A stretch of 64,000 nucleotides of DNA, taken from the NCBI GenBank assembly GCA_003290165.1, contig QNQO01000458.1, positions 186,001 to 250,000 on the forward strand. Reading direction: 5' to 3'. Below are positions 13,079 to 46,262 of the stretch, piece by piece (the first letter of the stretch is position 1; each line of letters begins with the position of its first letter). Source of the stretch: Berberis thunbergii (Eukaryota; Streptophyta; Magnoliopsida; Ranunculales; Berberidaceae). The notes below the pieces were generated by a model. The model saw nothing but the letters and a program-made list of their open reading frames with translations, was not told where the DNA came from and searched no databases. A program made the translations under genes and the position numbers.

Positions 13079-13116
13079 GTTAGCTTCAACAAATGAGCTA
13101 AACCCAATCAGGATCA
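13079..13116 (+). repeat. Left part of 55-bp unit split by the inner CACTA element
   Basis: These 38 bases, starting GTTAGCTTCAAC, plus the 17 bases at 22934-22950 rebuild one 55-bp unit. A second, nearly identical unit follows directly at 22951-23005. The inner CACTA element therefore inserted into the first of two tandem 55-bp repeats. The last 3 bases here (TCA) are the target duplication. Confidence 0.88.
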
Positions 13117-13134
13117 CACTACACCAAAAGGGCT

Positions 13135-13612
13135 ATTTAGCTACGCCGAGCTGCCCACGGTTTTAAACCGTTGCTGTATTTGCCACGGCCAGTAACCGTA
13201 GCTATACGTACCAACAGCTTAAAACCGTGGGTACAAAACAACTTGGCCACGGTTTACAACCGTTGGTAAAGTTGTCACGGCTAAACACCGTGGCTAATAT
13301 TAGCCACGGCTCCAGACCGTGGGCATGTTTTGCAACGGCTTAAAACCGTTGCAACAAAAATATTAGCAACGGTTATAAGCCATGGCTACATGTAGCAACG
13401 GTTCAAAACCGTTGCAAAAAAAAATTTAGCAACGGTTCTAAACCGTGGCGACACTTAGCAACGGCTTAAAACCGTGGTAACAAAAAAATTAGCAACGGTT
13501 CTCAACCGTAGCTAAATCTAGCAACGGCTCAAAACCGTGGCTAAAAATAATTTAGCAACGGTTTTAAACCGTGGCTAGGTCTAGCAACGGCTCAAAACCG
13601 TGGCTACATGAA
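13135..13612. repeat. Left subterminal repeats of inner CACTA
   Basis: About 17-18 variants of a unit resembling GCAACGGTTTTAAACCGTGG occur in alternating orientation at about 25-35 base spacing. They match the array at 22484-22915. In the superfamily such arrays bind the element's own accessory protein. Confidence 0.9.
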
Positions 13613-14008
13613 AAGCTGAAAAATAAAATTGGGCGGGCTTCCCTTCTTTTGGCGCTCGACCTTCCCTCCTTTCGCAATTTCGCAATTTCACCAAATCGAT
13701 CGACTCTCCCTCCCTCGACCTGCTTCTCCCTCCATTCGATCGACTTCCATCGACCTGCTCCCTCCCTCGACTCGACTTCCCCCCTTTAAGTGTGGAGAAT
13801 TAGGTCGATTTCTGGCGGGTGAAATTTTGCTAAAAAATTTTGCTTCCCGCGCGTTCCCGCTCCATCTCCCCCTTTTCAACTAAAATTTCAAGGAGAGGGA
13901 AAGAGAGAAGGAGAAAGAGAAGGAGAAGGAAAGAGAGAGGGAGAATTCGAGCAACCCAAACAACCAAAACCCTTTGCTCCATCATGTCATATCATCCAGT
14001 AAAGTAAA
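13613..14008. other. Spacer before CREG fragment, CT- then GA-rich
   Basis: Pyrimidine-rich sequence with ATCGATCGACT words (13695-13790) is followed by a GA-rich run (about 13890-13945). The position directly before a start codon suggests a captured 5' UTR or promoter segment. No coding exon is seen. Confidence 0.35.
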
Positions 14009-15188
14009 ATGGTGTCCAAAATAGTCTCTGCTCTATGTTTTTTCTTCGTTTTTGTTGTCCTTGAAGCTTCAATTGCAGTACAGGGGAGAAACTTGTATTG
14101 AAAACAAAACTAAATCCTAATGATGCTGCTGTGTTTGCTAGATGGTTGGTCTCTGAGAACACATGGGGGGTCTTAAGGTGAATCTCTATATCTCTCTCTC
14201 TCTCTCTATTTCCATTTTTTCCAATTAGAATTTTTTATGAGTCTAATTTAAGTGTTCGTGGATTGTAGCGGTGTTGTATCTTTGGTTATATGAAACGGGT
14301 TATGGTTATTCTTAGGTTTATATAATTGGTTGTAGCTGGATTTGGATAATAATTGTTAAATGTGGTTTGTTGGAGGCACCTTTGGTTCTCTTTGTAAAAT
14401 GGGTTAGTTGATTTGGTGGAGACAAAAGAAGTCTTGTCAATTTTTATGACTAACACTGGATTGTGTTTGTCTCAATGATGATGAAAACACCCATTTTACA
14501 ATTCTGTCTAAATACGTGTCATCATGTCTGTGACTGGCTGAATAAAAGAATTGTTGAGGTATAGATTTTAACTGAAAACTGAACAAACAAACAAGCAACT
14601 ATTTTTAAGATTACAAATACGATACAAAGCATGAAAGCATTGAAAAGCTCATTTACGAGATCTTTGAACACATTCTATACTTTCTGCATTTTTTGATCTC
14701 TATGTAATATGAAAAGAATGACTCGTATATGTTTCTTTTGATAAATTAATGTGGCATTAGCCACTATCCTTGTTCTGGGAAGCAAAATTTGTATTTGTGG
14801 TTAAGTCCTCATATGAATTTGGACCATGATGTTAACATTGATACTTTGTTCCTGCAGTATCATCTCCAGTGACTTGGGAGGAGCTCCCTTTGGGTAAATT
14901 ATTTACATTTTCATACAGTTTGGCTAAGTTATTTTTTTACACCAAACTAATTTTTGATTGACATTATTATTCTCCGATGTATTCAGAAATGTAGTTTCAT
15001 TTAGTGATGGGAAACCTGGTAAAGGCTGGGGCATCCCATACTTCTACTTGACCACTCTTGACCCTACTGCAAGTAATGCATTGAATGATTCAAGGGCTTC
15101 ATTTACACTCAGTGAGTTCCCTCTTGGAACTTGTGGCAAGACAGATCCTGAGAACCCAACTTGTGCAAAGCTTACACTTAATGGAAAG
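14009..15188 (+). pseudogene. CREG-like protein (FMN-binding split barrel), captured 5' exons
   Basis: Three plus-strand exons match the plant homologue of CREG1 (PNP-oxidase-like split-barrel protein of the secretory system). Exon 14009-14177 has an ATG, a hydrophobic signal peptide and then NPNDAAVFARWLVSENTWGV. Exon 14858-14893 (SSDLGGAPFG) and exon 14987-15188 (NVVSFSDGKPGKGWGIPYFY through PENPTCAKLTLNGK) follow, with correct phases and GT/AG borders. Between signal peptide and barrel the frame is broken by a 1-bp change (NLY-stop). The C-terminal exons are missing, so this is a captured, disabled fragment. Confidence 0.88.
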
Positions 15189-16807
15189 GTGAATAATTAA
15201 ACATTTTGAACACTCATCTTTTTTGTGTCGATATTTTCATTAATACATGATGTACTATGGATGACTTGACCTTCATTTCTAGCACTTTTTCATTAGTCCA
15301 ATGAATATATCTTAGTCTAAAGCTTTGACATTGGCTATTTCAAACAATGATAAATGCTTATGTTTATAACTTTCATACCTGTATGCATATCATTAATTAA
15401 GAATGTAATAGTATTGAGAGACTGTGAGAGCATTTTTGATTGATTTGTGGAAATTTTAGAGGCTGGTTCCACAATAATAATAGGATGCTATCAGTATGGT
15501 GGTTATGGCCCATTTCTAATAAAGTGCTCTTCATCTTCATGTGTCTCTACTCTTTCCAAATTTGCCACGACTTACGTAGTTTGAACTCTGCTTCTTTCCT
15601 TGCTTTCATGTTAAAAAAATTATATTCCAGGAATTTTTTTTTCAGTTTTAAAGGTTTTTACTTGGACTGCTAGTAGAGATTCTGCAAAATACATCGTATA
15701 GCTCTTTACTAACTTTGACATCAACAGCCGCAGCATTTCATGCAATCTTTAGCTTGAACAAGATGGCTCTTTAATTTTGACATCAACAGCTCTTTAATTT
15801 ATATTGGAAATTTATCCTTTGCATTTTAGCTTGAACTTTAGGAAACAACCAAAAGTCTCTTGCGTTTGAAAATTGTTGGTTAAAGTCCACACTCACCTGG
15901 AAAGTTTTCGGACTCCACCAAATTATATATACACACTTAAGCTGCATACTAAACAAGATGGCTACAATCCGGTTCACAACACTTCCGACAAATTCATGTT
16001 CTTAAAGAATTCCAAGTAAATAAAATCGACATTGAAGGAATCTGTTTTCCTCCAGACACCTTTAAGGAGGATAGCATCAACTCCATCCAATTTGATTCAG
16101 ATGGATAGGCAGGAAACTGTATACATCGGGTTTTTAGCAGAAGGGTTTGGGGTAGCAGCTCTTTTAGTTGTAGTTTGTTTTGTTTTTGCTGTGCTCCTAT
16201 TCTCTTTCTTTGTTTCTTTATGTATAGATCTGTGTTTTATTGATTAAAAAAATTCTTAACATAAAAAGGGAAAAAAAAATAAAGAAAGAAACAGAATACG
16301 TAGTTATTTTTTTGGCATGCAAACTGAAATCACTATCTTCCTTTAATTGTTTTGCTAGTGTTTTCGATTCTATGGCATGAACAAATGAAGCACATACACC
16401 ATGCACACATGCATGTGCAAACACACACTCTTTGGTTCATATTGTATAACATGAGATTATTTACCAAGAAGTTAAAATCTAAGTGGTTTTGGTTGGAATA
16501 CTCCTACATATAAATTGAAATCCATTGTGTGTTCGAATGCCAAAATATATGGAAATATTTGTTTATAAATGTTCTAGTTTATGTTGCATCCTTTTTATTT
16601 TATGTTGTGTGTACTGCAAAGATCTTGAATGCTGAAGGTTGTTATTTATCTTTATTTGCATACATTTGGCAACTTGTAAGTATTTGCCTTTATTCATCCA
16701 TGATGCTATTTCTCAAGAACAAACATTGGTGTAATGTTGAATGAGGATTGCCATCCTGTAATCTGTCTGTCTATCTTTCTTATTTTGCCAACTTGGTATA
16801 CGAGCAG
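15189..16807. other. Spacer between captured CREG and NUA fragments
   Basis: No recognised exon. Some open frames occur on both strands but none resembles a family known to me. The junction between the CREG-derived and NUA-derived DNA must lie in this stretch. GA/CA-rich low-complexity runs occur near 16262-16285 and 16393-16430. Confidence 0.4.
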
Positions 16808-17266
16808 GAAAAGGAACTTTTGGAGTGGCATAACACATGGCTCAACGAGGAGTTGACAGTTAAAGTCACAAGTCTCATGGAACTGCGTAAATCACATTCG
16901 GAACTTGAGGCAGAGATGTCTTATAAGCTCACAGATGTAAGTTTTTTGGTTGTTTTTTTTTTCTCGGTGTCATGGCAGTTGGATATTTTTATATTTTTTT
17001 TTCCAGGTTGAGAGACAATTCAGTGAATGTTCAAGCTCTTTGAAGTGGAGCAAAGAGAGACTGAAGGAGCTAGAATCGGAATTGACATCACTGCAGGATG
17101 TATGGGCTAATCTATTGTCGCATGTCTTTTTGAGTTATGCATTTTCTTCTCACCTAGGTTGCCTTATAACCTTACACATGTGTTAATATCTTTCGTGAAG
17201 GAGTTATGCTCTTCCAAAGATGCTGCTGCTGCAAATGAAGAACGATTCTCTGCTGAAATTTCAACT

Positions 17267-18534
17267 GTGAGTTTAATTGAAAATTTTACTTTATATTACT
17301 TTCTCCAATGTTTCCTCATATATTAGTGAAAATGGCTTGAGCGTTTTGCTGGAAAGTACACTAGTGTCATTGTAAATTTTTTCTGGAAAGCACATGAGTG
17401 GATTACACTATGGTAATTTTTGTCATAGTATTTCCCCTTGTCTCCCTCTCTCTCCACACACACATTCAGGTAATCAGGTGGTGACATGATATTTCACGGC
17501 CCTTTGCACATTTTAGCATGTCTTAGGCAAGCTTTCCCATGCCTTTGGCATATACTAGCCTCTGGCATGCTGTGCGTATCACATGCTAGAAGCACCATGA
17601 GTTTTGAAAACTATTAATGTTGATTGGAGGTATCATTTTAAAGATTGTTAGGGAATGTGTTAGGACAATACCATTATACCGATTTCACAAAAATAAATTT
17701 TTGGACTAAAAGTCGTTATATAATAAGTTACTGACAAGGTTTTTATAAATGCTAAGGCACGCTTATTAACTTGCATTGAGGCGAAACACCCTAAGGGAGT
17801 GACAAAAGCCTTAACTGTGAAATAATGCATGTTTCAGCCCTGAGGTGTACACTCTCTTGAGATCCATAAGCTCAATTATGTTTCTTGTGGTTTATTGGCC
17901 ATTTTTATGTACAAGTTTTGTTGCTTAGCGAGATAAAATGTGAGAGAAGTCTAAAAAGAATTAAAATATAACTGTAGGAGAAAAAAATGTTCGCTTTTAA
18001 ACATCAACTTTGATTAGTGTTCATGCTTCCTAGGTGGCAATCTTTGTGATTCACTATTGGGCAATATTCACCTTCTCTGTAGTGTGAACAGATTCATGAT
18101 GGGGTAGTAGTTTGGCATGCAAGTTAGTTGTTCTATTATGTTCTATTAATCTTATGCAACATAAGTAACAGGAGGACATGTAATGTGTAGCGCATTACAA
18201 GCAGATACCAGGTTAAAGTTCAAAACATTATCAGGTTAACTTTATTTGAATAATGTGATCTTAAATCACTTTTTTGTATGATTTTGCATGCACTCATTTT
18301 TCAACCTTATTTGCAAGGCTCCTCAATGTGTTAGTTTGTTTCAACATTTCTGGACAACGCCATCGACAATACTTTATTTTTGTGACTAGGATCAGTGCAT
18401 GAAAATATTTCGGTTTTTAGGATGTTAGATTTTGAATGATATATGTGCTTCCATCTACTTATAGTTTCACTTTTGGAAGTTCTATAATCTGTCTTGGTGT
18501 ACTGTAAGTTTTAAATTTCACATCTTGATTGAAG
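17267..18534. other. Intron within NUA fragment
   Basis: A 1.27-kb intron between captured NUA exons 3 and 4. No coding content is seen on either strand. Confidence 0.5.
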
Positions 18535-18859
18535 GTGACTAAGCTTGTTGAATTATATAAAGAGAGTTCCGAGGAATGGTCTAGGAAGTCGGGCGAACTT
18601 GAGGGTGTAATCAAGGCATTGGAAGTAAGTGGTGATTGCATCCATGTCAGGTTACTGCAGACTGTGTCTATTCAGTTTCATTTATATGTTTATACCTTTG
18701 GTATGCAGAAACATTTGAACCAAGTTGAGATTGATTATAAAGAAAAACTTGAAAAGGCACTATCAGCAAGAAAACAATTTGAAAAGGTATGGCTTACCTC
18801 CATGTGTAGTTAACATGGTATAATTTGTTTACATCTAACTTCTGTAAGCTTTTTAGTTC

Positions 18860-19480
18860 AAAAATTCTGAACGGTATACTAATCACCCTCAATCTCCTTA
18901 TTTGCTTGGAATCATAAATCTCGTTGAAACAAATCAGCTAAAAACAGATACGAAACCATGGACTGTTTTCGCAAAAAACTGTTTGTATAAACTGGATGAA
19001 GCAAGACTGATTTTGCAATAACTTTGCTTTTATTCCAGAAGTGGAAGAAGCAAGGATCTGTTTATAAAAACAGATATCGAAGATGCAATCGAAGAAGCAG
19101 GACTCAAATTGATTCGAAACTCTGTTTGAAAAACTGTTTCAGTAGAAGCTCACAAATTCTCTGTTTTTCGTTTCAAGAACTGGAAGAAATCAAGAACTGT
19201 TCAAGCAGAAAACTCTGTTGTTTTCAAGAACTGTTCCAGAAATAGAATCACTTTATTGTTTCAATAACTGGAAGAACAAGACAGGATTTCGGATTAACTC
19301 TCCATCATACTCTCTTCTCTGTTTCTGTTTTGCAGGAAAAACTGGAAGAAGCAAGCTGTTTTGAAGGTATTCTGCTGCTCTGTTTTTTTCGTATGAAGAA
19401 GCAAAACTGCTCTGTTGATATGGGGAAGAAGCAAGAACTGGAATTCATTGCTCTCTAGCAGATGAACTGTTTTCTTCATT
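18860..19480 (-). repeat. Diverged copia-type LTR fragment in NUA intron
   Basis: Bases 18868-18920 share words with the minus-strand solo LTR at 28745-29650 (ACGGTATAC, TCTCCTTATTTGCT, GGAATCA). The rest is a run of degenerate GAAGAAGCAAGA-like repeats with CTGTTT words. It is probably a decayed, rearranged LTR; exact ends are not visible. Confidence 0.4.
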
Positions 19481-20316
19481 TCGTTATTCTGAAGAGCTAA
19501 TACCAGATGGTATATATAGAATTTGGTTCTTTTATTACAACGTTAGGAAGCTGCCGAGTTGAAAGAAAAGCTTGAAAAATGTGAAGCCGAACTTGAGAAA
19601 AGTAGAAAATCTGATGAGTTGCGCCTTCTCCCAATCAGTAGTTTTACTGAAGAAACGTAAGTACCTTCGATGTTTGATTGTACTTTACGAGCTTATTATC
19701 CTGGAAATTCTTACGATTCATATATATCTCAGTTTGTTTGTGAAGATATCATGGTTGTAGTTATCTGTTGCGCATTTCTTTTGTTGGATATATTCTTCTG
19801 CAGGTAATAAATGTACTATGTCAGTTCTAAATGCTTTGACGTCTTCAAGTTTGATTTTGACATTTTTCTTCTACCAATATCACTTGTTTAGTTGCTATTG
19901 TACAGTCTACAAAGCTTTTTATTGTCGTTGAGAGTTCTTCAATTTGATTGGTATTTTGCAGATGGACTTGTGGTACTGAGACTGATGATGTGAATCAGAG
20001 TAACCTCGTGCCTATTCCCAGGGTGCCAACAGGTGTTTCAGGAACAGCTTTAGCGGCTTCCCTTCTGCGTGATGGTTGGAGTGTGAGTGGATCTTTTGTG
20101 GTTTATATTTTTGAATACCAAAAAAATAAAAATTACATGACCTACATCTTCAGAATTTCATTCTTATGTCAAGCATTAGTTTATTTTTTACTTGCCTTTG
20201 TTTTCAATTTCTTTTGTTATTAGTTGGCTAAAATGTATGAGAAATATCAAGAGGCTGTTGATGCATTGCGACACGAGTGTTTGGGTAGAAAGCAATCAGA
20301 AGCGATATTAGAACGG

Positions 20317-21172
20317 GTGATGTATTCTTACCTTTTTTTTATCATATTAATATTTTGTTTTGCATGGAAGTTTGAACTCTTTGTTTGTTCTCCTTTATTT
20401 CAATCCTTTTACTTCTTAAAATTTTTTCTTCGCCTCTTCTATTCTGTGAATTCTTGCAGTTTACTTGGTTTGATTGAGATCACGATTGAGGTTTTATTGA
20501 TTCATATTTTGAGATTTCTACTTCTAGCATTGCCACTTCTAAGTTGTTTCATAAAGATAGGCACATATTTGATTTGCAGTATTAGGAAGCCCTTAGTTGC
20601 TTAGAAAAGTTAGCCCAACAGTCTACAGTGTGATTCAAGTGATCTTGTTTCATTTGGAAGTAACAAGATCTCTTTTCATTTGGAAGTAACAAATAAAACT
20701 TGTGTAGATTATGGAGGGTTGTGTTGATCATGGATTTTCGAGATCATCCATGTCTCTTGCATTATTGCATATACCAAGTTGTGGAGGTTTTTCATTTGAT
20801 GCTGACACAAGTTTTTTCTATGATTCTGTTTGTGTCAAGGTGTCTGAACGACACCTGAATATTAAAACAAAAAAAGAGATTAAGAAAAGAGATGATGTCT
20901 TTATTATAGAAAGTGATGACATATGTTATGCCTTGACTACAAAGCTAATATGAGGATCTTCCATATCCATGACTTGTATTTTATTTTTTTCTTGTAAATC
21001 AGTTTTTGATAAATTAGAGTTTTCATGTTTTTCATAGGAATAGCTCATTGCCATTAAATTTTTGAGGTCTTATATTTGTCTATACCATGAGATGATAGTT
21101 TTGTTGTCTTGTGGTTATTATTTGTAACTATTTTCAGATTCGTTCTATCCCACACAGTATTCGATTGTGTAG
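20317..21172. other. Spacer between captured NUA and TAF6 fragments
   Basis: No recognised exon. Around 20640-20690 the words TTTCATTTGGAAGTAACAA repeat in tandem. An 80-codon open frame at 20711-20953 (many Ser, Asp and Lys) has no family I know. The NUA/TAF6 junction lies here. Confidence 0.4.
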
Positions 21173-21281
21173 GTGATCGAAGCTCCCCTGCCGAAAGCCC
21201 CTCTAGATACATCAGTTGTAGCTCATTGGCTTGCTATTGAAGGTGTACAACCAGCCATTCCAGAAAATGCTCCAGTTGAAG
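21173..21281 (+). pseudogene. TFIID subunit TAF6, captured exon
   Basis: One plus-strand exon encodes [20 protein letters not shown] followed by [15 protein letters not shown]. This is the conserved linker just after the histone-fold domain of plant TAF6, a general transcription factor subunit. It lies between a TAG acceptor (21170-21172) and a GT donor. No other TAF6 exon is recognisable, so it is a single captured exon. Confidence 0.85.
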
Positions 21282-21851
21282 GTCTGTCTCTTAGCTCCAG
21301 TTTCACCTTATGCAGAAATTACTCGTATAAAGAGTTTGAGACAACCTTTTACATTGTCATTTTTTTAACATTGACATTTTCAACATCACATGCATGTATT
21401 TCAAATTAATCCAAGAACCCCATCATAGTTAGAAACTAAACATTACAGAGAAAATTGGTTAAGGCATTGCTTGAATATATAAATCTTATTAGGTGAGTGT
21501 GAAATTAGTGTCAAACTGTCAATACTCATCTCAGTCATGCCATATTGGAGCCACTTGGTCTGAAAGTATTCTAGTGGTGTTCTATCTTTTGATTCCTTGT
21601 TTTAGTTGCAACTGCTAAATGAATGAACAAAAAAGTTAGAATCAAAGAATTGCATTAGAGTTGTTTTGTTCCCTTTTGTTTTATGAGAAGTAGCCTGAGA
21701 ACGAAGAAGCAAGTAATAGCATCTTGTTTCCTTTCTCTATATTGCTCCGATCATGTGGATGTCACTCCTTTCCAAAAATATATTTATAAGTTTAATTTCT
21801 TTTTATATAGAGGGGAAATTGACCTCGTCATTGACTATTGGCTATGAACAG
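21282..21851. other. Spacer after TAF6 exon
   Basis: AT-rich sequence with no recognised exon. It may be a TAF6 intron remnant and the junction to the last, unrecognised fragment. Confidence 0.35.
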
Positions 21852-22163
21852 GTACAGGACATTAGCCAACAGCAAAAATATGGATTTGGTGGAACCTGGG
21901 AAAATCTGGCCAAACTTTCAGGATGTAAGATTTTCGCAAATTTGATGACTGCATTGAGTTTACCTAAACGAGAACACTTTCTCATATTCAGAAGATCTTA
22001 TGAATTTTTCTTTAAACTGGTGCAGGGTGAGAAGGATCATCCACTTGATATCCAAGATAGGAAATGTTTTCTCGAAAAATTGGATGAGGTTGCTGATGAT
22101 AGGGACGCTAAGGAGGATTTAAATATGAAATGCCTCCTAGATATGCTTAAAGACTCTCATTGA
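21852..22163 (+). pseudogene. Unrecognised 3'-terminal exons in inner CACTA
   Basis: Two exon-like plus-strand pieces follow consensus CAG acceptors. From 21852 the frame reads VQDISQQQKYGFGGTWENLA. From 22026 it reads GEKDHPLDIQDRKCFLEKLD and ends CLLDMLKDSH plus TGA. The last piece is acidic and helical. Joining them at the nearest GT donor does not keep frame. I cannot assign a family; it could be a fourth captured gene or an accessory gene of the transposon. Confidence 0.4.
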
Positions 22164-22438
22164 CCATATGAAGAACTATAGTGGTACTCACATGAACAAT
22201 CAACAAAGTTTAACAAGGAAAAGTCAAGATTCAAACAGTAGAAGAAATTTGGATGAAACAAGCTTAGATATGCTCCTAGATATGCCTCCTAGAAATTTGT
22301 ATTTGAGATATTATTTGATAGATTTTGACTCAATGTAATACATTTTCTTATTAATTACATTACTTTGCCTCCATTAATTACATTACTTTGCCTCCATTAT
22401 TTGATAGATTTTGACTCAATGACTCAAAGTCATTTGAT

Positions 22439-22440
<2 letters not shown>

Positions 22441-22483
<43 letters not shown>
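22441..22483 (+). repeat. Poly(A) run of about 40 bases
   Basis: A nearly pure A tract (C at 22440, then A) stands exactly where the right subterminal repeat array begins. Just upstream (22340-22435) a segment with TTACTTTGCCTCCATTA is repeated. It could mark an old retroposed end or be replication slippage. Confidence 0.7.
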
Positions 22484-22486
<3 letters not shown>

Positions 22487-22915
22487 CCACGGTTTTAAAC
22501 CGTGGCTATTGCCACGGCTCAAAGCCGTTGCTATCACGTTTGCCACGGTTTAAAACCGTTGCTAATAGCTACATCTTGTCACGGCTTAAAACCGTGGCCA
22601 GGGTTAGCCACGGCTAAAAACCGTTGCTACCTTTTAGCCACGGTTTACAACCGTTGCTAATATCTACACCTTGTCACGGCTTAAAACCGTGGCTATTTTT
22701 GCCACGGCTAAAAACCGTTGCTATTCTCCTTGCAACGGTTTAAAACCGTGGCTAAATGCTGAAAATCACCACCCCTACTCAAACATAAAACCGTTGCTAA
22801 ACATTTTAGCAACGGTTTATAGCCGTTGCAACAAATTTCGCGACGCCTCTGTAGCCAACGGCTCTTAGCCGTGGCAATGGGTTACGCCCACGGTACAGAA
22901 CCGTTGCTAAAGGGG
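22484..22915. repeat. Right subterminal repeats of inner CACTA
   Basis: Palindromic units around ACGGTTTTAAACCGT in both orientations, matching 13135-13612. They end just before the CCCCCTTTTTGGTGTAGTG-type terminus (read inward). Confidence 0.9.
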
Positions 22916-22950
22916 GTTTTTGGTGTAGTGTCACTAAGGTGGGGATACAT

Positions 22951-23005
22951 GTTAGCTTCAACAAATGAGCTAAATCCAATCAGGATCACTAAGGTAGGGA
23001 TACAT
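22951..23005 (+). repeat. Second 55-bp tandem unit
   Basis: An intact copy of the unit split at 13079-13116 / 22934-22950, differing at two positions (TAAATCC for TAAACCC; GGTAGGG for GGTGGGG). It shows that the tandem duplication predates the CACTA insertion. Confidence 0.88.
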
Positions 23006-23484
23006 GCAAACATGCATTCACTACATATTAATTTAGTTAGAGAGGCTTACTTGATCCTGCAGGTGTAAACAGATGGAGTCTTTCAACTCCTCTAACTGTG
23101 AGTATAATATTGGATGTGTCTAAAAATCAACATCATCTACATTTTGCGAAAGTTTTCAGACACGCACACAAAAAAAAAGGGCCTTTAGTCATGAATCTGA
23201 CCAATAATATTGGAAAGGAAAGATTGAAATTTAAAAGTATCTAAGCAAACAATAGCATATTAGATTCACATCACATCCATATCAAAACATTAAATTTTAC
23301 GGCATTCTAATGTTGTAGCTAACAATACCTGTACTTAGTTCAGGGTAATTTCCATTACCCAAAAGCCTAAGCATGGCTGACATCCGTCCCTTTCCAAATG
23401 TGCATACCATTGACACCAAAGAAACCTAAATATTATACACAACCATCAGTTACCACGAAATATTCAAAGAGATAACCAATTTCA

Positions 23485-24988: not shown

Positions 24989-25850
24989 GGGTCATTCTAG
25001 ATGCGAGGAAATGGGCGAGGGAGGGTGGGGCGCACGTGCAAGAGGTGACACGTTGTAAAAAAAAAAAAAAAGGAAAAATAGCAAAATTTTGGGGAGAAGA
25101 AGGAGGGAATGGGGAGGATAGCTTTCTCCCCATTTTCAATCTCAGAGACAGAGAACCTCTCCTCCCCATTTTCTCCCTCTCTCCATTTTCCATCTCGACA
25201 AAGATAGAGAATGCCCTCCCTCTCCCCAAACGAAGCTCTCCCTCTCCACCCTCTCCCCATCATCAACTCAAACCAAGCCAGAGAAGAAGCTCAAACGAAG
25301 CCAGAAAAGAGAAGAAGTTCTCCCTCGTCCCTTTCCTCTAGCAAAAGGTAAACCCGGCGATACCTACTTTTACTTGATTTTCCTTCTCATTTTAGGGTTT
25401 CTCTGGGTTGGTAGATGTCAAAGCTTTGTTTATGATATGGTGCTTATAGCCATGACCTTGGGTCCTTGTGTGTTCTTGACTTGGTACATGAGAACCGGAG
25501 GGACAAGGCCATGTTTTCTTGACTTGTGTGCTCATTTTAGGGTTTCGTTTGCAGCTCTCTCATTTTTTTTGTTTATTGACTTGTGTGTTCTTAACTTTGC
25601 AATGATTATGAAAGATGGTGGACAGTGGTCGATTTAACTGTATTTCTTTGATTTCAGAGACGGCGAACAGCGCTTGATGAACTCAACATGTGTAGCATCT
25701 TTGAAGAAAATGATGTTATGTGTGTAAGTTCATTAATTCTTCAAGTTTTTTATGAATGCAGAAAAATTATGGCCCTGAGTTGGTAGATGTCAAAGCTTTG
25801 TTTATAAATGGTGCTTATAGGCATGACCTTGGGTCCTTGTGTGTCAGCAC
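24989..25850 (+). repeat. Left terminal inverted repeat of the Pack-MULE
   Basis: It matches the reverse complement of 30230-31854 (without the nested MITE) from end to end. Inside it a segment of about 60 bases (GATGTCAAAGCTTTGTTTAT...CCTTGGGTCCTTGTGTG, near 25415-25475 and 25786-25847) is itself repeated. The purine/pyrimidine-rich outer part (25012-25330) could act as a 5' leader. Its open frames are matched by equally open frames in the other TIR, so they are a property of the repeat and not a gene. Confidence 0.88.
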
Positions 25851-30229: not shown

Positions 30230-31854
30230 TTGAGCACACAAGGACCCAAGGTCATGGCTATAAGCACCATATTATAAACAAAGCTTTGACATCTACCAAC
30301 TCAGTGCCATAATTTTTCTGCATTCATAAAGAACTTGAAGAATTAATGAACTTACACATATAACATCATTTTCTTCAAAGATGCTACGCATGTTGAGTTC
30401 ATCAAGCGCTGTTCGCCGTCTCTGAAATCAAGGAAATACAGTTAAATCGACCACTGTCCACCATCTTTCATTATCATTGCAAAGTTAAGAACACACAAGT
30501 CAATAAACAAAAAAATGAGAGAGCTAAACGAAACCCTAAAATGAACACACAAGTCAAGAAAACATGGCCTTGTCCCTCTGGTTTTCATGTACCAAGTCAA
30601 GAACACACAAGGACCCAAGGTCATGGCTATAAGCACCATATTATAAACAAAGCTTTGACATCTACCAACTCAGAGAAACTAGGGGTGGGCATCCCATCCC
30701 GCGATCCCGTTCTCGTCCCTTCCCGTCCCAATTTTTTCGGGTCTTAATGGGATTGAATAATTCCATCCCGATCGTCCCGTCCCGATCTAGAATGGGATGG
30801 GACGGGATGAAGATTTTCAATTCCGCCAATCCCGTCCCGAACTAATTTTTCAATATTTATTATTAATTTTATGATTGCAATATTTGGATGCCCATACAAA
30901 TTCCCTGATGCATATAACATTTTAGCATCTAAAATTCTCAATGTCGTTAGGCAATCAACTCATATTTGAAGACCAATTTGTTTAATTGTATTTAACTAGG
31001 GTACATTCGATTTCATTGAAAACTTTGGATACTCAACCTATAATACAATTTAATGAGTTCCTAGTATCATCTCATTTGCAAGGATAAATATGCATGAAAA
31101 TTAAACTCTGTGAGAGATTCCAATGACAACTTCATGTGCTTATTATGACATAGGTTACATTATGTTTAGTTGATTGCATTTTGGTTTATTATTTCATTTT
31201 CAGCATGGTTTTGTGTGAACATGCAATTTGATGAAGATCAATTTTAGTTATTGAAATTGCATGGTTAATTTGAAACACGCTAATCCCGTCCCGTCCCGAA
31301 CCCGTTTGGGATGGGACGAGGTCGGGATGGGGTTTATCTCATCATGTCCCGTCCCGATCCCGTATGAACGGGATGTGATTGGGATGGGTATATCTCGTCC
31401 CATCCCGTCCCGTGCCCACCCCTAAGAGAAACTCTAAAATGAAAGGGAAAATCAAGTAAAAAGTAGGTAGCGTCGGGTTTACCTTTTGCGAGAGGAAAGG
31501 GACGAGGGAGAGCTTATTCTCTTCTTTGGCTTCATTTGAGCTTCTTCTCTTCTCCTTCTTCTTCTCTAGCTTGGTTTGAGTCGATGATGGGGAGAGGGTG
31601 GAGAGGGAGAGCTTCGTTTGGGGAGAGGGAGGGCCTTCTCTATCTCTGTCGAGATGGAAAATGGGAAAAGGGAGAGGGAGAAAATGGGGAGGAGAGGTTC
31701 TTTGTCTCTGAGATTGAAAATGGGGAGAAAGCTCTCCTCCCCAAAATTTTCGATTCCCCCCCCCCCCCCCCCCCCGCTTTTTTTTACGACGTGTCACCTC
31801 CTGCACGTGTGCCCCACCCTCCCTCGCCCATTTTCTCGACATCTAGAATCACCC
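30230..31854 (-). repeat. Right terminal inverted repeat of the Pack-MULE (interrupted)
   Basis: Reverse-complement copy of 24989-25850, split at 30680-31424 by a hAT MITE. It is rearranged at its inner end, where the segment CACAAGGACCCAAGGTCATG occurs twice, as in the left copy. A run of about 20 C at 31757-31776 replaces mixed sequence in the left TIR. Confidence 0.85.
30680..31424. mobile_element. hAT-like non-autonomous element (MITE)
   Basis: This 745-bp element starts TAGGGGTGGGCA and ends TGCCCACCCCTA, a perfect 12-base inverted repeat. It is flanked by a perfect 8-bp target duplication AGAGAAAC (30672-30679; 31425-31432). An 8-bp duplication and this terminus are typical of the hAT superfamily. 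The subterminal zones are full of CCCGTCCCGATCCCG words in both orientations. It has no coding capacity. A relative begins at 63905. Confidence 0.94.
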
Positions 31855-33956: not shown

Positions 33957-39280
<5,324 letters not shown>

Positions 39281-40948
39281 ATGAGATTGCAGGGGTTCTT
39301 GGTAGGTTTTTTGTGTTGGGTATTAAGAGGATTTTGGACGTGAGAAGTAAATCTGGGAAAACTGGGATTCATACCCCCTTCATCTGTTTCAAAATCTTTT
39401 GTTATTCTATCCAGCAAAATGTTAGCTTGTTTGGGTCAATGTGATATTTATGTTATTTTGCATGTAGACGATTCGATAGCTTATAACCTGTTTTTGACAT
39501 ACCATTCAAGGAATGAGTTTCCCGGTGAAGCTTGCTTATTTTATCAACTACTTCATATAGTTCACATGATTTTGGGATTTATATTATTTTTTTCGTCATA
39601 TTATGTTAATTAACAAATTTCATTCAATTTTTTTTTTAAAATATCAATTTATCTTACATGTGGTTTGTACATGTTTTTTTATTAAAATCACGTAAATCAT
39701 GTTGTTTGATGATTATATTTGATCCAACGATTAGGGAAATGGTTTATATTAATTAAAAAAAAACTAATGAGCCAAAATAAGAGTAGCTATAAACTAATAA
39801 AGGCCAAATGAAAAGTAACCCTAAATCCTTTACCTGCAATTGGTTGATTGCGTAGATCATGTACAATTGCAATGAAAAGTTAGCCATAAAAAAGGGTTAT
39901 AGTTTGTATTTCATTCCTATTCCACACCTTTAGCACTTAGTTTGTGTTTTATTCCTTCTCTTATTGAAGTAGTTTCACTTTTATAGGATTTAGACTTAAA
40001 TGTTTCAAAACTTCAAGCTTTTAAAATTGAAATTCTTAGATTTTAAAATTGTGTCTTAAAAATTTGATAAAAATAATAAAATGTTAGTTTTGCCTAAACA
40101 AGCCAAAAGAGACTTGGTTACAACGAGTGGTAGGCATGAGATAGGATGAACCTCATCCCTATCATATCCCATTCATTCGAGATCTGAACGGGATAGATCT
40201 TGTCCCGTCTCAAACGGGTTCGAGAATGGATGAACATATACTAAATATATAAATAAATACATAAATAAATAAAAATAATTCCCAATGGCACGATAGCTCA
40301 ATGGTTAGAGATTGGCGGATGGTACCACTAGGTCATGAGTTTGAACCCAACTGACAACATGTAAATAGCAAGGATTGTGATTTCATTTTTTGAGGTAATT
40401 TCAGTGAGTTGATTTTAAGAAATATTCCGTCTGTGTATAGAAAAAATATAAAAATTGCGGTAGTAATTTTAAAGTTATCAATATAATTTAAGCATTGTGG
40501 ACTCTTGTATACTACATTATAACTCTGGCTAGCCTCCAATAAAGGCAAAGTTTGTGAAGGTTTCAACAAGTTACTCACCAAGCTTTCCAAAGACAAATTA
40601 CATAAGAACACCTCACAGATTGCAATTATCATCTAAATTCCAATGTAGGAACTATTGAGAGTTTTCCAAACCTCAATGTTGTCGATACTCCACTTTTTAT
40701 GTACATAATTTGTTTGTTAAAGATTTGTAACCTCACAATTTCTTTAAGAGTACATTTGATGTTGGTCCGTTCTACTAATAGTGCAAATGGTTTCAGTCTC
40801 TTTTATAAATTTTTTGATAAGGTGTTAGTCCCTTGTTGTCAATACAATTATCTTGTCTACGTGCTTCTTACATGATGCTAGAAAAGACTTAATTAAACTA
40901 CCATTGCTTGAGAAAAGGAGATGGACAGTGTAATCTAACACGAAAAAT
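39281..40948. other. L40 3' flank, no further gene
   Basis: Contains the L40 3' UTR region, one partial unit of the 145-bp repeat (about 39670-39750), a SINE and the duplicate blocks listed above. At 40125-40230 (and 36985-37100 in unit 1) words such as CCCATTCATTCGAGATC and CGGGATAGATCTTGTCCCGT look like decayed hAT-family subterminal repeats. No extra exon is seen. Confidence 0.5.
40281..40372 (+). mobile_element. tRNA-derived SINE (duplication unit 2 copy)
   Basis: Plus-strand copy with TAGCTCAATGGTTAGAG (box A) and GAGTTTGAACCCAAC (box B region). It occupies the same position in unit 2 as 37131-37240 in unit 1. Confidence 0.85.
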
Positions 40949-41644
40949 TAGGGGTGGGCACGGTTCAGGACGGTCAGGGATTAAGCTTGTTTCGATCCCG
41001 ATTCAGTGAAACAGGATGGAACGGTTAGGGATAGTTTTTTTTTTGCAGAATCATTTGGTCCCAGACCAAGACGAAACCATGCCATCTCGATTCAAAATAT
41101 TCGCTGGTTCAGGCCCAAGCCCAATATTGAATTAAGTCGGATTCTCCGTTGCTCAACCCAGCCAATTTGCGGACTAAAGAGCCCAAGTTGGCTCAAGCCC
41201 AATACTGAATAAATCCAATAGCTCTCTGTGGTTTCTTATTCTCAAACACCCCCTTGAATTGAATTAGAATTGGAATTGGAGAAGAAGAAGAAGATAGCTC
41301 GATCAATCCCTTTGCCTTATCAATTTCAACAACCGCTCGAGTCAACCACACTCGAAGGCTCATCATTCTATCCCGATCCTGTAAAGCCAGTGGTGAAATG
41401 GCGGTTCAAGTGGTTGTTCTTGAGGAACTCATCATCCAAGAAGTTCGCACCAGTAGAAGTGCTACCAAGTAACATGAACGTAAATGGAGAGTTCGAGCTG
41501 AGTTTAGTGTGCTTGGTGAACATGGTTCAAAACTTCATCGACTATAGCAATGAGAAGTAGAAATGAGGACGCAACCGCTGCAATTGCAACAACTGCAATG
41601 ATAGCTCTGACGAAGAGCTTGACTTGTTCGGTGGATTCAGCGAC

Positions 41645-42629
41645 TGTTGGAAATATGGTTTTTTAAAATAAAAGAAAATGGGTGTGAACCTGGGTTTGAA
41701 TCCTGGATCTCTCTTTAATTTTAGTCTCTGGATCTCTCTCTAATTTTAGTCCCACATCTTCTATATAACTTATTGTGAAAGAGTTTATTAGGAGATTGTT
41801 AGGACTTGGGCTTGGACCCCTTGGGGATACCACACTTTTGTGAGGAGGGAAGAGATAGACTCTCGCGCCCGTCGCCGTCCGTCCATCGGGTCGGGTCGGG
41901 TCATTTAGAAAGCAACCTATTCTTTTTGCTGAAAATTTATTTAAACGAAAATAAATTTTGAATTGCTGAGAAGGGAGACTGAGTCAAATGCATCAAGACG
42001 GAATGTTGGCTGACTCTGTCCTCCACGCGTTGCGCCAACGGTAGCGTGATTTTCTCCCCACGTTTTTCATGCAAATGTTGTGTCCATGTATCTAGACAGG
42101 ACTTTGTCCATGTATCTAGATGTTTTCTTAATTCCACACGTTTTTCATGTTTCTTTTAATTGCATTCTCTAAGCAATGTATCTAGTTGTGATTTTGTATT
42201 TGAACGAATCTATATTCTCCCTATACATACAATACAAACTTAAAGTTTAGATACAAGAAGAGAAAAACAAAGCATTTTGCAAAAACAAGCATTTTCGTTT
42301 TGCAATTAGTTTTCGTTTAGCATTTCAATCAAATAAGAGTTTTTCTTGTTGTTGATTTTTATACAATGTATTGGTAATTCCGAGCAAACAAGAGATTAAG
42401 GGTGAAAAGTATTTCGTTCATCAACAGTGCAATTATTTGAACGAGACAGAGAAGATTCTGGGTTGTTTTATCCTGGGGGACGGCGGGGCTACGATACTGC
42501 TTGCACATTTTTGGGCAGAGCCGCGAAACGTCTTAAAGAAAACGACCTAGTCCGCGACTCAACCCAAGAACAATTGGTACCTTCCTTCCTATCTTTTAAT
42601 TTGAACTTTTACAACATTTACAAACAATA
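41645..42629 (+). repeat. 5' LTR of copia element
   Basis: 985 bp, colinear with 45259-46214. It shares long words such as GGGTGTGAACCTGGGTTTGA and AACGAGACAGAGAAGATTCT. The two LTRs differ at many scattered sites and small indels, so the insertion is not recent. Confidence 0.9.
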
Positions 42630-42655
42630 ATTTTAAGACATTTTCTATTTCTGCC

Positions 42656-42770
42656 ATGACTACAATTACTGAACTTGCTGCAAAAGACCTTAACAGACCC
42701 TTTCGCTTTACGGGCCAACATTTTAAAAGATGAAGACAAAAGATGTTGTTTTTCCTAACAACACAAAAGG
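42656..42770 (+). pseudogene. Copia gag remnant
   Basis: From ATG 42656 the frame reads MTTITELAAKDLNRPFRFTG and QHFKR, then TGA in place of tryptophan, then RQKMLFFLTTQK. This is the usual start of a copia gag polyprotein. It stops being recognisable after about 38 codons. Confidence 0.75.
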
Positions 42771-43797
42771 TTGCATATATTTGTGCAAGAATGCACACAC
42801 TTGATCACACACAAAGACTTGAGTTAATTATTAAAGAAGTGAATTGTATATACTTGGTTATATATAGATTAGCGATGAACAGTTAATATCCTGATTCAAA
42901 TAGGAAACAAGGTAATGGCACTGTTTAGTGCAAAGGATCATGTTTCGAGTCTGTTGCCATTATTCGTTTTGGATTATGAATGAATTTGAACCTTAAAAAT
43001 AAAAGAGGAAAAATCTGAGGATTATTTCCATAATAATGTACTGATAGTTCAATCCATAATAGCTAGTTGGTGCATTACGAATTGCACTAACAACTAAAGA
43101 ATTTGGCTGAGCATTTTGCTAGACTCTCTGTGTCCTTTTACTAATGACTATCCTTTTCACCAATCTATTGAACTTATTATGAACATCAAGTTAAAAGATG
43201 TGAGTTTCCAGTAGCTTAGTGCATTTGTAATGATAGAAATTGTATGGATTGTGGTATGATTGTGTTTTTTCTGTAAATCCATTGAAAAACTTTAGTCTAG
43301 GCTCTAAACCTATGAAGGACTAACTAGAGGAGATTGTGTATGAGTAGAACACCTCTTTGTAATTTCAAATATTGATTAAATGGTTTTCATCCTTGTGTAT
43401 GCGGAGCTGAAGTCAAGAGAAGCCACACATGAGGGTTTATCATTAAACTCAAATGGCTTTTTAGAGATTTTTTTTCAGCAGTGGCAGCCCACTTGCACCT
43501 AAAAGCATACCCAATGAATATTTTTAGGATTGAAGGGCCACCCACATCTGCATTGAGACATCTTCATATCTTCTTCACTAAGTATTCAATGTCTTACTTT
43601 TTTGTGGATACTCTTCACAAATCTTCAACTTTTAGGGGGAAAGAAAGATATAAGCTTTATCATTTAACATTGATTCAGTAAACATTGCTGCGCCATATAA
43701 TCGACTTCAGTGAGTGTAAACTCCGTAATCCACTCTTGAAATCTTTAGTTGGATGGTTGCTTAAGCGTGTGCTAGAAGCTAGAAAACTTGGGGTAGT
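42771..43797. other. Copia internal region without recognisable coding
   Basis: This is where the rest of gag, protease and most of integrase should lie. Only AT-rich sequence and short frames are seen, so it is deleted or replaced. Around 43450-43680 a 66-codon frame has no known match. Confidence 0.4.
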
Positions 43798-44688
43798 TTA
43801 GCTTATGTTAGGATTCCTGATCCTAAAAGGTATAAGCTTGCAAATAGGGCACATGAATGTGCATTCATAGGATATGCCATGAACAACAAAGCTTCTATAT
43901 TCTATAATCTTAAAGATCACGTCATTATAGAATCAAACGACGTTGACTTCTATAAAAATAAATTTCCTTTTATTTCGAGGAATAGTGGGGGTACATCCTC
44001 AAATAATGTGCCTATGATCAAGATGAATGAAACTGATAAAGCCACAGAATCTGAGCCTATGAGAAGTAAACGGAAACGAACTTCTAAAAACTTTGGCCCC
44101 GATTACTATGTCTTTTCAGTCGAGGAGGATTCCCTTAGCTTTCAAGAAGCCTTATCCTCTATAGATGCAATTGAAAGGGTCATGAGGTACCTGAAGAGGA
44201 CTAAGAACCTCAGATTACATTATCAGAAGTTTCCCGCTGTCCTTGAAGGATATAGCGATGCTGATTGGAACACCCTTTCAGATGACTCCAAAGCCACCAG
44301 TGACTATATTTTCAATATAGCTGGTGGAGTTGTTTCTTGGAAATCAAAGAAACAAACCATTCTGGCACAGTCCACGATGGAGTCAGAGATGAAAGCATTA
44401 GCCACGGCTAGTGAAGAAGCAAGTTGGCTAAGAAACCTGTTAGCAGAGATCCCTTTATGGGAAAGACTGATTCCAGCTGTCTTGATCCATTGCGATAGTA
44501 CCGCGACTATTGCAAAAATACAGAACTATTATTATAACGGCAATAAACGACAAATACGTCGTAAGCACAGTACAGTTAGAAAGGTTTTGTCTACTGGTGC
44601 TGTGAGAGTGGATCATGTACGAACTGATGCGAACTTGGCCGATCCTTTGACGAAAGGATTAGCTAGAGAGAAAGTTTTCAAAACCTAA
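43798..44688 (+). pseudogene. Copia pol remnant: integrase tail joined to RNase H, RT deleted
   Basis: One open frame starts with the integrase C-terminal block (AYVRIPDPKRYKLANRAHEC, IGYAMNNKASIFYNL, then RSKRKRT), continues to QEALSSIDA, and jumps directly to IERVMRYLKRTKNLRLHY of the RNase H region. RNase H runs on with EGYSDADWNTLSDDSKATSD, STMESEMKALATASEEASWL and RVDHVRTDANLADPLTKGLA. The whole reverse transcriptase domain with its YVDD motif is missing at the SSIDA/IERV joint, yet the frame stays open. The normal RNase H acidic residues are mostly still visible. It is a defective element. Confidence 0.88.
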
Positions 44689-45258
44689 AAAGGAATGGGA
44701 CTAACGCCCTTAGATTGATGAGTTATTCATAACGGTAACCCAACCTATAGACTGGAGATCCCAAAAAATAGGTTCAATGGGTAATAACAAGTCGTGAATG
44801 ATATGATGTGAATCATGATGACAAAATAACAATCTCATTCCTAGATTAAAGCATGAATTCCTGAAGCATAGTAGGATGAGTTAAAAACTCTTAATGAGAT
44901 ATATACTCTATGTGGAGTGGAGTACCTAGCTAGAGGAGTACTCTTGATAGACTCACCTAAGTGATTGTAGAAGTCTGGCCGCTTCCTATGGAATTTGTGG
45001 GCAAAATTCCTAGAGCCTTCACTATACTGGGATATACGTGCATGGCCGTAAGGCACGGGCTTTTAAGACTTCACCCTGGTAAGGTTGTGCGTGTAATGTC
45101 TGTTAGAGATAGAGTTCAAAACTACGAGTTACTCTAGTATAATCTAAAGCATGAACACTACGCAAGAGTTCAAGTCGAAAGACACTTTTGTTTATGCACA
45201 ATCTTATATATTTTTTAGATTGCTCAATGACAATTGTTTTAAAAATCCAAGTGGGGGA

Positions 45259-46214
45259 TTGTTGGAAATATGATTTTTTAAAATAAAAGAAAATGGGTGT
45301 GAACCTGGGTTTGAATCCTAGTTCTCTTTCTAGTTTCAGTCTCTGAATCTCTCTCTAATTTTAGTCTCACATCTTCTATACAACTTATTGTGAAAGAGTT
45401 TATAAGGAGATTGTTAGGACTTGGGCTTAGACCCCTTGGGGGTACCACACTTTTGTGAGGAGGGGAGAGATAGACTCTCGCGCCCACTGCTGCCGTCGTG
45501 TCGGGTCATTTAGAGAGCAACCCATTCTTTTTGCTGAAAAATTTATTTAAACGAAAATAAATTTTGAATTGCTGAGAAGGGAGACTGAGTCAAATTCATC
45601 TAGACGGAATGTTGGCTGACTCTGTCCTCCATGCATTGCGCCAACGGTAGCGTGATTTTCTCCCCACGTTTTTCATGCAAATGTTGTGTCCATGTATCTA
45701 GATGTTTTCTTAATTCCACATTTTTTTTTAATTGATTTCTCTAAACAATGTATCTAGTTGTGTATTCTCCCTATACATACAATACAAACTTAGAGTTTAG
45801 ATACAGGAAGAGAAAAACAAAGCATTTTGCAAAAACAAAGCATTTTGCAAAAACAAAGCATTTTGCAAAAACAAGCATTTTCGTTTTGCAATTAGTTTTC
45901 GTTTAGCATTTCAATCAAATAAGAGTTTTTATTGTTGTTGATTTTTATACAATGTATTGGTGGTTCCGAGCAAACAAGAGATTAAGGGTGAAAAATATTT
46001 CGTTCATCAACAGTGCAATTGTTTGAACGAGACAGAGAAGATTCTGGGCTGTTTTATCCTGGGGACGGCGGGGCTACCAGACTGCTTGCACATTTTTGGG
46101 CAGAGTCGCGAAACGCCTTAAAGAGAGCGACCTAATCTGCGACTCAACCCAAGAACAATTGGTACATTCGTTCCTATCTTTTAATTTGAACTTTTACAAC
46201 ATTTACAAACAACA
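45259..46214 (+). repeat. 3' LTR of copia element
   Basis: 956 bp. A short unit, AACAAAGCATTTTGCAAA, is present three times in a row (45815-45870) where the 5' LTR has one, an expansion private to this LTR. The end TACAAACAACA gives the CA terminus at 46213-46214. Confidence 0.88.
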
Positions 46215-46262
46215 ATGACTCCATCGTTTCCTCCTCTGCTGACCTGTTAGACTTTTTCAAGG

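Follow-up and report, generated by a model that had tools for sequence, protein, structure and literature searches.

In a 64-kb stretch of the Berberis thunbergii genome (C458:186001-250000, from an assembly totalling 2.24 Gb over 11,732 contigs; the window, below, is this whole stretch of 64,000 nucleotides), we identified a complete, apparently non-autonomous CACTA transposon at 13117-22930. It carries pieces of three host genes, CREG, NUA (nuclear-pore anchor/TPR) and TAF6, and is classed as a Pack-CACTA with several captured genes and sharp borders. Copies and relatives of the element elsewhere in the assembly, together with the parental genes of two of the three pieces, allowed its gene load to be followed junction by junction. 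The parts of the element and its borders are as follows, with the strand given where there is one.

13114-13116: left target site duplication (TSD), TCA, confirmed by the empty site
13117-13129, plus strand: 5' terminal inverted repeat (TIR) CACTACACCAAAA, 13 bp and perfect, the outer, 'A'-type terminus
13140-13610: 5' subterminal array built from palindromic ACGGYT / ARCCGT units
13620-13785, plus strand: CT-rich leader of the A terminus, common to siblings that carry other genes (PEPC in loci L006 and L008)
13784-13791: deletion scar; L033, L035 and other siblings retain the remaining A leader at this point, followed by a spacer and a second 5' terminus, of 'B' type
13790-15409, plus strand: CREG segment, with exons at 14009-14177, 14858-14893 and 14987-15188; exons 4-5 are absent in the window and present in L033
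15407-15792: element-internal DNA with short repeats beside the NUA junction
15793-20971, plus strand: NUA segment with introns, 99.0-99.1% identical to its parent at C4827:350735-355562
16808-16936, 17007-17099, 17201-17266 and 18535-18624, plus strand: NUA exons 1-4
18709-18786, 19547-19656, 19962-20082 and 20224-20316, plus strand: NUA exons 5-8
18871-19511: other DNA of about 640 bp, in place of 290 bp of the parental NUA intron
20972-21118: older element DNA between NUA and TAF6, also in L033 and L035, with CATG at its left edge and TTAT at its right
21115-21820, plus strand: TAF6 segment with one exon (21173-21281), 97.5% identical to its parent on C1144 (L049)
21818-22441, plus strand: DNA with a short open reading frame (ORF; to 22160)
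22442-22483, plus strand: poly-A run of 42 nt, directly before the 3' subterminal array
22484-22917: 3' subterminal array
22918-22930, minus strand: 3' TIR, 13 bp
22931-22933: right TSD, TCA
22950-23006: the target site without the insertion, repeated in tandem over 57 bp (96.5% identity), to the right of the element

The element is assigned to the CACTA (En/Spm) superfamily by its TIRs starting with CACTA, its 3-bp TSD and its subterminal arrays of direct and inverted repeats. Within the window CACTACACCAAAA occurs at two places, 13117-13129 on the plus strand and 22918-22930 on the minus strand; allowing one mismatch added no further match (0.12 expected by chance), and two matches were reached in 1 of 100 shuffled controls. 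The motif C[AC]ACGG[CT]T or its complement is found 22 times in the first 500 bp of the element and 22 times in the last 447 bp, against 4 occurrences in the remaining 54,186 bp of the window, and plain shuffles of the first 500 bp (n=200) gave a mean count of 0.04. When the two flanks were joined with a single TSD, the resulting empty site was matched without interruption (439-443 of 443 bp, 99-100% identity) at all 40 loci scored from 248 first-look candidates, which places the element within a young repeat. A preliminary description of this DNA had proposed perfect ends with a TCA duplication and subterminal arrays on both sides, and both proposals were borne out by the 13-bp TIRs, the TCA on either side, the empty site and the motif counts. 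Each of the three copies followed to both ends has a perfect 3-bp TSD (TCA, TCA and GCT). No transposase domain was detected among 10 of the element's longer ORFs scanned, and the longest open frame inside it is 147 amino acids.

The CREG piece was identified by Pfam (PF13883, 1.4e-29), as was NUA/TPR (PF25481, 4e-21), and TAF6 was identified by its match in the PDB to structures of TFIID subunit 6 (7e-10). The NUA fragment matched no TPR structure in the PDB, only coiled coils and these weakly (best E 0.012); its identity is drawn from the Pfam match, the plant-homologue search and the parent gene. A chimeric query found plant homologues of CREG, NUA and TAF6 among the 120 listed of 703 matches. 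All three pieces share one orientation, and GT/AG sites are kept on every exon (three of CREG, eight of NUA and one of TAF6). The intron-containing, plus-strand pieces of the preliminary description, with eight exons for NUA and one for TAF6, therefore stand. CREG exon 1 of the window copy has a 1-bp deletion seen in no other of the 15 sampled contigs, window included, so its CREG frame is broken. A different 1-bp deletion in the same exon was found in the copy on C10688, and the exon has its full length of 170 bp in 13 of the 15. The borders also needed correction: the NUA and TAF6 pieces have the limits listed above, and 18871-19511 and 21818-22441 are other DNA.

For two of the pieces the search for parental genes suggested in that description was successful. 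The NUA gene on C4827 is 99.1% identical to the piece, introns included, and the TAF6 gene on C1144 is 97.5% identical over 711 bp; a sibling element, L050, holds a longer TAF6 capture (98.2% over 1332 bp). A second TAF6 gene, on C1464, was rejected as parent, being only 76-80% identical. No CACTA terminus of the element's family was present in the 9.9 kb examined at C4827 or the 3.9 kb examined at C1144. For CREG we found only a diverged chromosomal candidate, on C427 (85.7% identity over 635 bp), which may be a paralogue rather than the parent; with no better candidate, either the CREG capture is older or the true parent was not found. Two further candidates, on C1162 and C1552, were rejected as CREG parents, since both begin with a B terminus.

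The element belongs to a large family. Its first 184 bp were matched at 99% identity or more at 40 of 40 scored loci, window included (2935 candidates), and the CREG part likewise at 40 of 40 (320 candidates); the 40 places scored for the NUA part (1359 candidates) include the parent gene, and the B terminus was 98-100% identical at 40 of 40 loci (1765 candidates). These first-look numbers (2935, 1359, 320 and 1765) are unscored candidates and do not represent copy totals. A count of the NUA-to-element junction pattern gave 55 places on 53 contigs, 52 of them exact and 3 with one mismatch, and the reversed pattern, used as a control, gave none genome-wide. The recurrence of this one junction indicates a single capture that was then amplified. 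Among the sampled copies there are 22 distinct left flanks. Four contig pairs have identical flanks in common, so that both haplotypes seem to be assembled and the true sites may be as few as half. Three of the 55 junctions lie in a tandem array (C1794:69166-82790) with NUA places about 5.9 kb apart; L037, part of this array, has the NUA-TAF6 stretch (window 15735-21634) twice, head to tail. Looking for other copies with the same ends, as the preliminary description had advised, thus recovered many near-identical ones with differing cargo, and the CREG-NUA-TAF6 order was seen nowhere outside CACTA ends, with three copies followed from end to end.

The differences in cargo are substantial. L033 carries CREG exons 4-5 (PF13883, 8.7e-15, with the peptide joined across a frameshift in exon 5), NUA and a piece of a DUF819 gene (PF05684, 2.6e-12); exon 5 is open in L074, a B element. 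In the 10 kb covered of L035 we found CREG, DUF819, a piece of an NDX homeobox gene (PF24426, 3.1e-25) and a frameshifted piece of cysteine synthase (PDB match 4.3e-22, no Pfam match), and no NUA. At L006 and L008, which are different sites, a PEPC exon (PF00311, 3.4e-9) lies behind the same 5' end. All seven captured genes (CREG, NUA, TAF6, DUF819, NDX, cysteine synthase and PEPC) are in the orientation of the element; this uniformity is suggestive only, as the independent captures are few. Within NUA, L033 and the parent keep the original intron length where the window has the DNA at 18871-19511. Among 11 sibling NUA loci aligned to the window, six (L012, L013, L016, L017, L018 and L019) cease to match it at 17190, and the five examined upstream of that point have the same other DNA there. 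The six represent another subfamily, in which NUA exons 1-2 are absent at that place. Towards the 3' end, the poly-A run is 23 nt long in L036 and 15 nt in L034, and the ORF at 21850-22160 had no homologue in our search and no Pfam match.

Evidence for the origin of the 5' part comes from L033 and L035, which have the B terminus 1.30-1.35 kb inside the outer one, directly before CREG and about 81% like the outer terminus. We examined 10 regions upstream of the B terminus: nine have the outer A end, at 7 distinct sites, and the tenth ends with its contig and matches the A leader as far as it goes. With L003/L004/L035 and L005 added, composites of A and B occupy 9 distinct sites. The 10 bases preceding the inner B end are identical in all 17 composite loci examined, making a single founding A+B event likely, and both stand-alone loci have other bases there. 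In these two, on C1162 and C1552, other DNA directly adjoins the B terminus on its outer side, and CREG comes after it at 96-99% identity; judged from their 5' ends alone, they look like stand-alone B elements. L006 and L008 have the A end and the PEPC piece, with no B terminus or CREG within the 1.5 kb examined. Loci of the window type, which have no inner terminus, occupy 11 distinct sites. The stages of a Pack-TYPE fusion, A-only (judged over 1.5 kb), B-only and A+B, are thus all present in one genome.

The NUA and TAF6 pieces have edges of a different kind. Aligning the copies for capture breakpoints, a further suggestion of the preliminary description, resolved the right junction of NUA and the left junction of TAF6, both with 4 bp of microhomology. 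At the former, CATG is common to the parent and to L035, which is free of NUA at that place; at the latter, TTAT is common to the parent and to L033 and L035, which continue with other DNA. By our own estimate, the chance of a match of at least 4 bp at one junction is roughly 1.5-3%. Ahead of the left edge of NUA lie repeats of neighbouring sequence, as expected of filler DNA; in L050 a 21-bp repeat follows the right edge of TAF6, and the junction of the later deletion, at 21820, carries ATT. We take these features to be consistent with gap repair by template switching or end joining.

The NUA piece also bears out the expectation that this case would be datable. Over about 3.1 kb, the window and 10 sibling loci differ from the parent at 19-29 positions (0.6-0.9%), 19 of which are fixed in all. 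Copies differ among themselves by 0.33% on average (range 0.03-0.61%); the C10688 doublet (L010 = L036) is counted once for this mean, and the set omits the array L037 as well as L018, L033 and L034, which lack part of the stretch through deletion. At a clock rate near 6.5e-9 per site per year, NUA would have been captured roughly 0.5-0.7 million years ago and its copies would have spread roughly 0.25 million years ago.

We consider it very probable that this non-autonomous Pack-CACTA acquired its gene load stepwise, by fusion followed by internal captures. What was observed directly is the set of separate stages and copies, the junctions and the parents of NUA and TAF6; around these the following history may be drawn. 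CREG would first have been the cargo of an element B that had a 5' terminus of its own. B would then have come to lie next to an A-type 5' end, and use of the outermost ends together would have yielded the A+B composite, which multiplied with the inner B terminus intact. Pieces of NUA and TAF6 would next have been added inside existing element DNA within the family, the likeliest route being gap repair in which short microhomology guided template switching or end joining. Finally, the window lineage would have lost the inner terminus, CREG exons 4-5 and part of TAF6 by deletions, and its form would have been copied within the last few hundred thousand years, on a rough clock. The elements were presumably moved in trans by a TNP2-type transposase binding the subterminal repeats; this enzyme we infer from the family, and the repair route and the absolute dates from junctions and a clock. 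The stronger statement that one lineage stacked genes by two routes in turn, end-to-end fusion and then microhomology-guided repair captures, we would put at about even odds. An intact internal terminus would then be tolerated because the transposase uses the outermost ends, and each capture's route would be legible base by base because high activity keeps intermediates and parents.

Several observations weigh against this history. A single 3' end was observed, and this in the three window-type copies followed to both ends; the composites were covered from the 5' side, and the putative stand-alone B elements likewise. Alternatively, B may have inserted into an A element to give a nested structure, the A+B composite, which later lost sequence. 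The outer TIR of L033 lacks its first base, so this copy may be immobile. As to the captures, the left junction of NUA has repeats rather than clean microhomology, and the right edge of TAF6 was assessed in gene-bearing sequence only. C16 is matched by the outer end, the inner end and TAF6 on one strand within 9 kb and is absent among the 55 NUA junctions, and NUA is present in L033, where the shared junction has no TAF6. The captures therefore fit no single linear order unless copies later lost sequence or exchanged it, and our first reading of the order, CREG, then NUA, then TAF6, is contradicted by C16. Also at odds with NUA having come first, TAF6 differs from its parent by 1.8-2.5%, compared with about 0.9% for NUA. 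Exchange of sequence between element copies is possible.

Of the other explanations, the one that survives best is that all gene pieces arrived by fusion of neighbouring elements, as in the Pack-TYPE model, with inner termini later deleted and no capture by repair. The A+B fusion with its intact internal terminus speaks for it, and the window-type copies indicate that such termini do get deleted. We nevertheless think it unlikely, since the NUA right and TAF6 left edges adjoin ordinary internal DNA that is gene-free in siblings and have 4 bp of microhomology there in place of terminal sequence. It appears quite improbable that CREG-NUA-TAF6 functions as a new chimeric gene and has spread for a protein useful to host or element. 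Exon lengths and splice sites are compatible with joining CREG exon 1 through NUA to TAF6 in a predicted frame that is in phase (432 codons by arithmetic, if exon 1 is the intact 170 bp), and the captured pieces examined have a single orientation; against this, the window and C10688 copies have different deletions in that exon, and the NUA coding sequence differs from the parent by 2 silent and 2 replacing changes in 780 bp, too few to show constraint. Neither the exon-1 deletions nor these coding differences gave any sign of protein-level selection, and by Pfam columns no protein among the 120 listed of 703 matches joins two of the three genes. That the multi-gene structure is an artefact of assembly, or a host segmental duplication which two CACTA ends later enclosed, may be dismissed as most improbable: the apparent assembly of both haplotypes does inflate copy counts, but the same NUA junction recurs across dozens of contigs with many distinct left flanks, the NUA and TAF6 parents lie on other contigs, and empty sites are present. 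The preferred explanation thus remains a fusion followed by internal captures.

Elsewhere in the window, the clearest host gene seen is represented by GAUT-like galacturonosyltransferase exons at 61054-62638 (PF25557, PF01501). Similar direct repeats at 41642-42631 and 45257-46216 (86.7%) surround an ORF at 43879-44688 with what we take to be copia-like RNase H residues and no significant Pfam match; the region 41642-46216 is probably an old long terminal repeat retrotransposon. A tandem duplication of about 3.1 kb occupies 35084-38216 and 38414-41476 (pieces 84-92% identical), and inverted repeats at 25397-25846 and 30231-30679, 96% identical and about 4.4 kb apart, are possibly the ends of another DNA transposon.

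In our view, gene pickup by cut-and-paste transposons has largely been argued from end products. Here one genome holds the precursors, a fused intermediate with its inner end, a cleaned-up descendant, sibling sequence free of NUA or TAF6 where these were captured, and near-identical NUA and TAF6 parents, so that the fusion and repair models can be tested side by side. Dozens of copies of a recent multi-gene capture also offer a natural setting in which to test exon shuffling and the effects of small RNAs on the parents. The kind of element is already known, and Pack-CACTA elements were reportedly the subject of work by Catoni et al. in 2019; it is the record of stages that is unusually complete.

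Like Pack-CACTA elements, the Berberis element has CACTA TIRs, a 3-bp TSD and several host gene pieces; the 10 ORFs scanned in it gave no transposase domain. Such elements are described from Arabidopsis, maize and rice in passages of PMC8903248 and of the review PMC13317346; the former also presents a route by which Pack-TYPE elements acquire genes when two neighbouring elements, A and B, fuse, and states that the most distinct loci in maize were those held by Pack-CACTAs. Unlike in those accounts, A-only, B-only, A+B and A+B with a deleted inner terminus coexist here in one genome. PMC8903248 calls most CACTA Pack-TYPE elements of rice and maize low copy, whereas one junction occurs 55 times here, perhaps with both haplotypes counted. 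The preliminary description was right about a multi-gene Pack-CACTA with clear borders and too strong in calling it rare, given the maize elements (PMC8903248) and Tgm-Express1 of soybean, which parts of PMC1947982 describe as a CACTA element carrying both exon and intron sequence from five unrelated genes. Tgm-Express1 is there a single insertion in F3H with chimeric transcripts shown (PMC1947982, same parts), while the Berberis element is known from DNA alone, in many near-identical copies and with two parental genes. On wheat chromosome 3B, 140 CACTA gene-capture events have been catalogued chromosome-wide, with few families dominating (excerpts of PMC4290129); here, one lineage was tracked junction by junction. 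In its high family abundance the element resembles pvCACTA1 of common bean, a very abundant CACTA family (PMC4938662) for which the start of the abstract does not speak of gene capture.

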